Shown: positions 1,203 through 1,603 of the stretch, piece by piece
Layout of the letters: every line of letters begins with the position of its first letter
Numbering within the stretch: the first letter of the stretch is position 1
Source of the DNA: Desulfonatronovibrio hydrogenovorans DSM 9292
GTDB lineage: Bacteria; Desulfobacterota; Desulfovibrionia; Desulfovibrionales; Desulfonatronovibrionaceae
Direction of reading: 5' to 3'
Assembly: GCF_000686525.1 (NCBI RefSeq)
Contig: NZ_JMKT01000015.1
Coordinates: 1-64,000 of the forward strand
DNA length: 64,000 nucleotides
The notes under the pieces: model-generated
What the model saw: the letters and a program-made list of their open reading frames with translations, nothing else
The model's database searches: none
What the model was told of the DNA's origin: nothing
Position numbers and translations under genes: made by a program

Positions 1203-1502
1203 ATGTTTGAATTAACAGATTCTGCCAAGACTCAATTGGATAGGTACTTTGAAACTCAGGAAAAGTCGCCCATCAGGGTCTACATGGCTGCTGGCTGAGG
1301 CGGGCCAAGATTGGCTCTTGCTCTGGATGAGCAAAAAGACAGTGATAATATTTTTGATATTAAGGGGTTTCAGTTCCTGGTGGATAAAGCCCTCTTGGAC
1401 ACCGTAGCTCCCATTGAGGTGGACCTGACCGAAGCTGGATTTGTGGTCAACTCCAGTCTCAAAGTAGATCCTGCTGGTTGTTCTTCATGCACTTCCTGCT
1501 AG
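1203..1502 (+). CDS. HesB/IscA-like selenoprotein (UGA-encoded selenocysteine at codon 32)
   Basis: A 99-residue IscA/HesB-type iron-sulfur carrier-like protein. The gene starts at ATG 1203 behind AAGGAGG and reads MFELTDSAKTQLDRYF, then IRVYMAAG, an in-frame TGA (1296-1298), then GGPRLALALDE and onward in the same frame to the stop at 1500-1502. The TGA aligns with the first conserved cysteine of IscA, and the C-terminal cysteines are present in CSSCTSC. Good homology-like sequence on both sides of the TGA argues against a pseudogene. HesB-like selenoproteins are a known class in deltaproteobacteria. A hairpin fitting the bacterial SECIS rules lies just downstream. Automated callers would truncate it to 1311-1502. 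It probably handles Fe-S or redox chemistry; its exact role is not established. Confidence 0.88.
1318..1334 (+). promoter_or_regulatory. Bacterial SECIS element
   Basis: UUGCUC (1318-1323) and GAGCAA (1329-1334) form a 6-bp stem with loop UGGAU. The loop starts 25 bases after the UGA and has G at its second position. Both features match the published bacterial SECIS model: a guanine in the first two loop bases and a loop about 16-37 nt from the UGA. SelB would bind here to insert selenocysteine. Confidence 0.75.
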
Positions 1503-1570: not shown

Positions 1571-1603
1571 AACGGCCATGTCCAAGGGCGTGGCCGTTTT
1601 TAT
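1571..1603 (+). terminator. Rho-independent terminator after the selenoprotein gene
   Basis: AACGGCCA (1571-1578) pairs with TGGCCGTT (1591-1598), and the stem runs into a T-rich tract ending near 1603. Confidence 0.75.

Follow-up and report, generated by a model that had tools for sequence, protein, structure and literature searches.

The gene at positions 1203-1502 on the plus strand of the window, i.e., the whole 64,000-nucleotide stretch of DNA of Desulfonatronovibrio hydrogenovorans DSM 9292 that was analysed, almost certainly encodes a selenoprotein of the HesB/IscA-like family NF038090, judged from its score, the open frame through the TGA codon, the TGA copies in relatives and the predicted IscA fold. 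As a finding, this is already known and ordinary for the order. A 2006 paper (PMC1794560) lists HesB-like selenoproteins from D. vulgaris and D. desulfuricans, DVU_1382 of Desulfovibrio vulgaris was reported as a HesB family member with a TGA in 2007 (PMC1914089), a HesB-like selenoprotein of Methanococcus has been identified through mutagenesis and 75Se labelling (PMC11097638), and a 2026 review gives UxGP as the motif of HesB-like selenoproteins (PMC13188914, Table 1). An earlier note, made from the DNA letters alone, had already described the selenocysteine-containing HesB-like family as known, which is borne out by the members published by 2007 and by the existence of an NCBIfam model. The case illustrates that a raw sequence read without tools can reveal a selenoprotein, hairpin included.

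Gene structure and start and stop signals

The gene begins with ATG (1203-1205), ends with the stop codon TAG (1500-1502) and contains a single in-frame TGA (1296-1298, plus strand), exactly where the earlier note had placed it, and all the other coordinates given there are right as well. With the TGA read through, the product comprises 99 amino acids with selenocysteine at residue 32 (Sec32), as the first residue of a UGGP motif (residues 32-35). A ribosome binding site, AAGGAGGA, is located at 1187-1194 on the plus strand, 8 nt before the ATG, in agreement with the upstream site postulated earlier, and its GGAGG is retained in relatives.

An open reading frame listing that does not allow for selenocysteine contains only 1311-1502, a frame of 63 amino acids with a TTG start, i.e., just the C-terminal part, as had been predicted for standard gene calling. 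The further description of the gene as hidden is only partly apt: it holds for gene callers that are blind to selenocysteine and for no others, because NCBIfam models the family (NF038090). The TTG of this frame has a weak GAGG some 10 nt upstream, and it could be imagined that the TGA terminates translation and that this shorter protein is made separately. Such an arrangement would, however, divide the conserved IscA fold between two products, conservation of the intact protein extends from residue 1, and the SECIS hairpin described below is kept only in TGA copies; separate production is therefore exceedingly improbable.

Family membership and predicted fold

The protein scores 105.2 bits with NF038090 (IscA_HesB_Se; cut-off 85), and the match spans the whole model (residues 1-95 on model positions 1-101), so that homologous protein does lie on both sides of the TGA, as had been claimed. 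The motif that characterizes the model, with selenocysteine (TGA) or cysteine at the first position of U/CxGP, is present as UGGP. With 36.7 bits against a cut-off of 66.35, the protein is not a member of the model TIGR01911 (HesB_rel_seleno). It also stays below the cut-offs of the equivalog models for IscA (24.1 versus 150.6), ErpA (23 versus 117) and SufA (17.7 versus 136.2), as well as that of Pfam PF01521.

Alignment with AQ_1857, HI1723 and E. coli IscA, IscA/ErpA-like proteins that all have solved structures, places residue 32 on the cysteine of the GCSG motif, which is Cys35 in E. coli IscA. The proposal that the TGA occupies the position of the first cysteine of IscA was thus correct. 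In all compared homologues that have the U/CxGP motif, a TGA or a cysteine codon is found at the Sec32 site, and the alignment to Sec and Cys homologues that had been suggested as a check therefore shows the two codons to share one site.

An AlphaFold2 model built with 39 homologues has a pLDDT of 84, and the best Foldseek matches of this predicted structure are IscA proteins (E 3.5e-6, TM 0.66; best PDB matches 1x0g, 1r94, 1s98 and 2d2a), consistent with an IscA fold. The cysteine-rich tail (residues 89-96) is poorly defined in the model and of low confidence.

A hairpin specific to the TGA copies

A hairpin, TTGCTC-TGGAT-GAGCAA, is located at 1318-1334 on the plus strand. It begins 19 nt after the TGA and has a 5-nt loop, TGGAT (1324-1328), and thus conforms to a bacterial SECIS, i.e., a hairpin just 3' of the TGA with a G in a small apical loop. 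The comparison set consisted of 94 distinct sequences, 57 with TGA (Sec) and 37 with a cysteine codon (Cys), and positions were numbered relative to the TGA or the Cys codon. Folding energy of the whole region separated Sec from Cys copies only weakly (mean z -1.06 for Sec versus -0.37 for Cys, p 0.02), and therefore specific pairs were tested. The five inner pairs of the stem are present in 57/57 Sec sequences versus 1/37 Cys sequences, counts that are not independent tests because the sequences are related. With random synonymous codons, the inner pairs would be expected in about 4% of the Sec sequences, and in 2% of cases for the window's own protein. Genomes that carry a Sec and a Cys copy in tandem nevertheless provide an internal control.

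The pairing is reflected in codon choice. The Ala codon at +8 is GCT in 56 of the 57 Sec members versus GCC or GCG in 30 of the 37 Cys members, and the Leu codon at +9 is CTG in every Sec member (57/57). Compensating changes occur as well. At pair 23-37, 35 Sec members have G-C and 21 have T-A, two states that differ by a synonymous change of a Leu codon combined with a Gln/Pro change opposite, and Clostridium magnum (L016) has T-A in place of C-G at pair 25-35. These sequence comparisons and the fold identify the hairpin (1318-1334) as a SECIS; the SECIS-like hairpin of the earlier note was placed at these very positions.

The one Cys sequence with the full hairpin is a HesB homologue (L012:3001-3222) that has TGC and yet a complete Sec-type hairpin, in a genome that has selB. 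A recent change from Sec to Cys is the likely origin, and a comparable SECIS remnant has been described for the HesB-like protein from Desulfitobacterium (PMC1794560, Figure 4).

Distribution of Sec and Cys copies

NF038090 matches are present in 145 of 150 genomes of the order, above the cut-off in 137, and many of these homologues are interrupted by exactly one TGA. In the bacterial family of D. hydrogenovorans, all 14 genomes listed (13 besides this one) have a TGA copy, and the homologues that were fetched and aligned have the TGA at the same codon. The family is thus a widespread selenoprotein of sulfate reducers. Several genomes, including this one, additionally contain an uninterrupted (Cys) copy, and in Desulfovibrio-like genomes Sec and Cys copies are often found in tandem. 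Tandem Sec and Cys copies in many genomes, and in some a further diverged copy without the cysteine (SESGPRLEL type), were noted at L042, L044, L045 and L047.

The Cys paralogue in the genome of the window, which is 75% identical, is encoded on another contig (G000:C9:441942-442226; L061:5001-5300). It adjoins genes for rhodanese, TorD-like, YedE/FdhT-like, TusA-like and DsrE-like proteins and a formate dehydrogenase alpha gene. A formate dehydrogenase-N alpha frame of the Cys form (HQARLCHSS; L061:6459-7592) matches only the initial third of the corresponding family model, and a TAA terminates it about 280 bases short of the contig end.

Because the paralogue is present, one of the two copies could be dispensable, and the gene at 1203-1502 might be regarded as a Cys-form HesB/IscA gene that was broken at codon 32 by a nonsense mutation or a sequencing error. 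This pseudogene reading is contradicted by several observations: the TGA is conserved, with a copy in each of the 14 family genomes listed and in many genomes of the order; the protein is conserved to either side of it; the SECIS is restricted to TGA copies; and the selenocysteine machinery is complete. It was rejected as highly improbable. The recurrence in 13 other genomes of the family, together with a hairpin that is tied to the TGA over 94 sequences, argues that the TGA is not a chance event and favours the reading as a selenoprotein gene.

Selenocysteine machinery of the genome

The earlier note had predicted that selA, selB, selC and selD are present in the genome (2.9 Mb, 98.9% complete), and indeed all four were found: selA (618 bits), selB (403 bits), selD (377 bits) and a tRNA-Sec (82 bits, cut-off 47), for which ARAGORN concurs and gives the anticodon TCA. 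A lack of SelB or tRNA-Sec, which had been named as an outcome that would speak against the selenoprotein, is thus not observed. The SelD gene itself (L082, G000:C8:543155-544081) contains one in-frame TGA, at KGAGUASK, and as UxxK is the published motif of SelD selenoproteins (PMC13188914), the genome encodes a second selenoprotein, SelD.

The frame would be open under any sense reading of the TGA, and thus decoding as another residue, e.g., as Trp via a changed code or a suppressor, was also considered. It was rejected, and has next to no probability, because the adjacent genes read normally under table 11, the homologues have Cys at this site, and a tRNA-Sec with a UCA anticodon is present.

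Flanking signals and neighbouring genes

A promoter-like element on the plus strand (1143-1171) consists of TTGACA (1143-1148), a 17-nt spacer and a weak -10 element, TAAATA (1166-1171). By eye, TTGACA is found at about equal distance in 6 of 7 compared relatives; the element is not listed by a consensus promoter scan, because its -10 element is weak. A pattern scan found a terminator-like hairpin of 12 pairs followed by a T-rich tail at 1571-1598 (plus strand). The selenoprotein gene is thus probably transcribed alone. An Rfam search of the region around it gave no match over thresholds.

Directly upstream lies a TnpB/OrfB-type transposase frame (17-1075; Pfam PF01385, Cas12f1-like TNB domain), with a weak, sub-threshold Rfam match to RAGATH-18 at 984-1018. 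This frame ends just upstream of TTGACA, and therefore the mobile element has not removed that signal. Downstream, a cysteine-rich protein of the PxxKW family (DUF6811/NF038144) is encoded at 1690-1980, 3' of the selenoprotein gene as elsewhere in the bacterial family, in which the order is the HesB-Sec gene, the PxxKW-family gene, an M20-type peptidase gene and mnmG. In Desulfovibrio-like families, the HesB-Sec gene adjoins other genes, e.g., a pyrR-like gene (names assigned by eye), and comparison of the gene neighbourhood across relatives gave no clue to HesB-Sec function.

Proposed decoding and function

Ribosomes would start at 1203. At the UGA (1296-1298), Sec-tRNA(Sec) would be supplied by SelB while it is bound to the hairpin (1318-1334), and translation would continue to 1502; the components are encoded in the genome. 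The product is predicted to adopt the IscA fold, which would put Sec32 at the position of the first cluster- or iron-ligating cysteine of IscA and the C-terminal GCSSCTSC tail in the place of the IscA CGC. Most likely, iron or an Fe-S cluster would be held by the selenolate of Sec32 together with cysteines of the tail. The protein may thus be a specialised A-type carrier or a redox protein; an A-type Fe-S carrier that has the selenolate as a ligand is favoured, at roughly even chances. A disruption mutant of the Methanococcus homologue is normal in nitrogen fixation (PMC11097638), so that the carrier role is putative.

The Cys paralogue is possibly a selenium-independent back-up. The more specific scenario, in which the Sec form serves as a dedicated A-type carrier with iron or the cluster on the selenolate and the Cys isoform is used when selenium is scarce, appears rather unlikely. 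If it were true, the YedE-, TusA- and DsrE-like neighbours of the Cys copy and the formate dehydrogenase would hint at sulfur or selenium supply for molybdoenzymes. With Sec and Cys copies paired in many genomes, the family readily lends itself to comparative or knockout work.

Comparison with known systems

The protein closely resembles the NF038090 HesB-like selenoproteins of Desulfovibrio, with which it shares the full-length match, the UxGP selenocysteine site, the bacterial order and the Sec-linked hairpin. Nothing essential differs: the motif is UGGP here versus UAGP or USGP in many relatives, and there is one residue fewer before the selenocysteine. The proteins of TIGR01911 are related, being HesB-like with UxGP, but the score here is below the cut-off of that model. 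With the A-type Fe-S carriers IscA, SufA and ErpA, the protein has in common the predicted fold and the position of the first ligand cysteine. In contrast to IscA, selenocysteine replaces Cys35, in UGGP instead of CSGM, and the tail reads GCSSCTSC where IscA has CGC; the scores are far below the cut-offs of the IscA, SufA and ErpA models.
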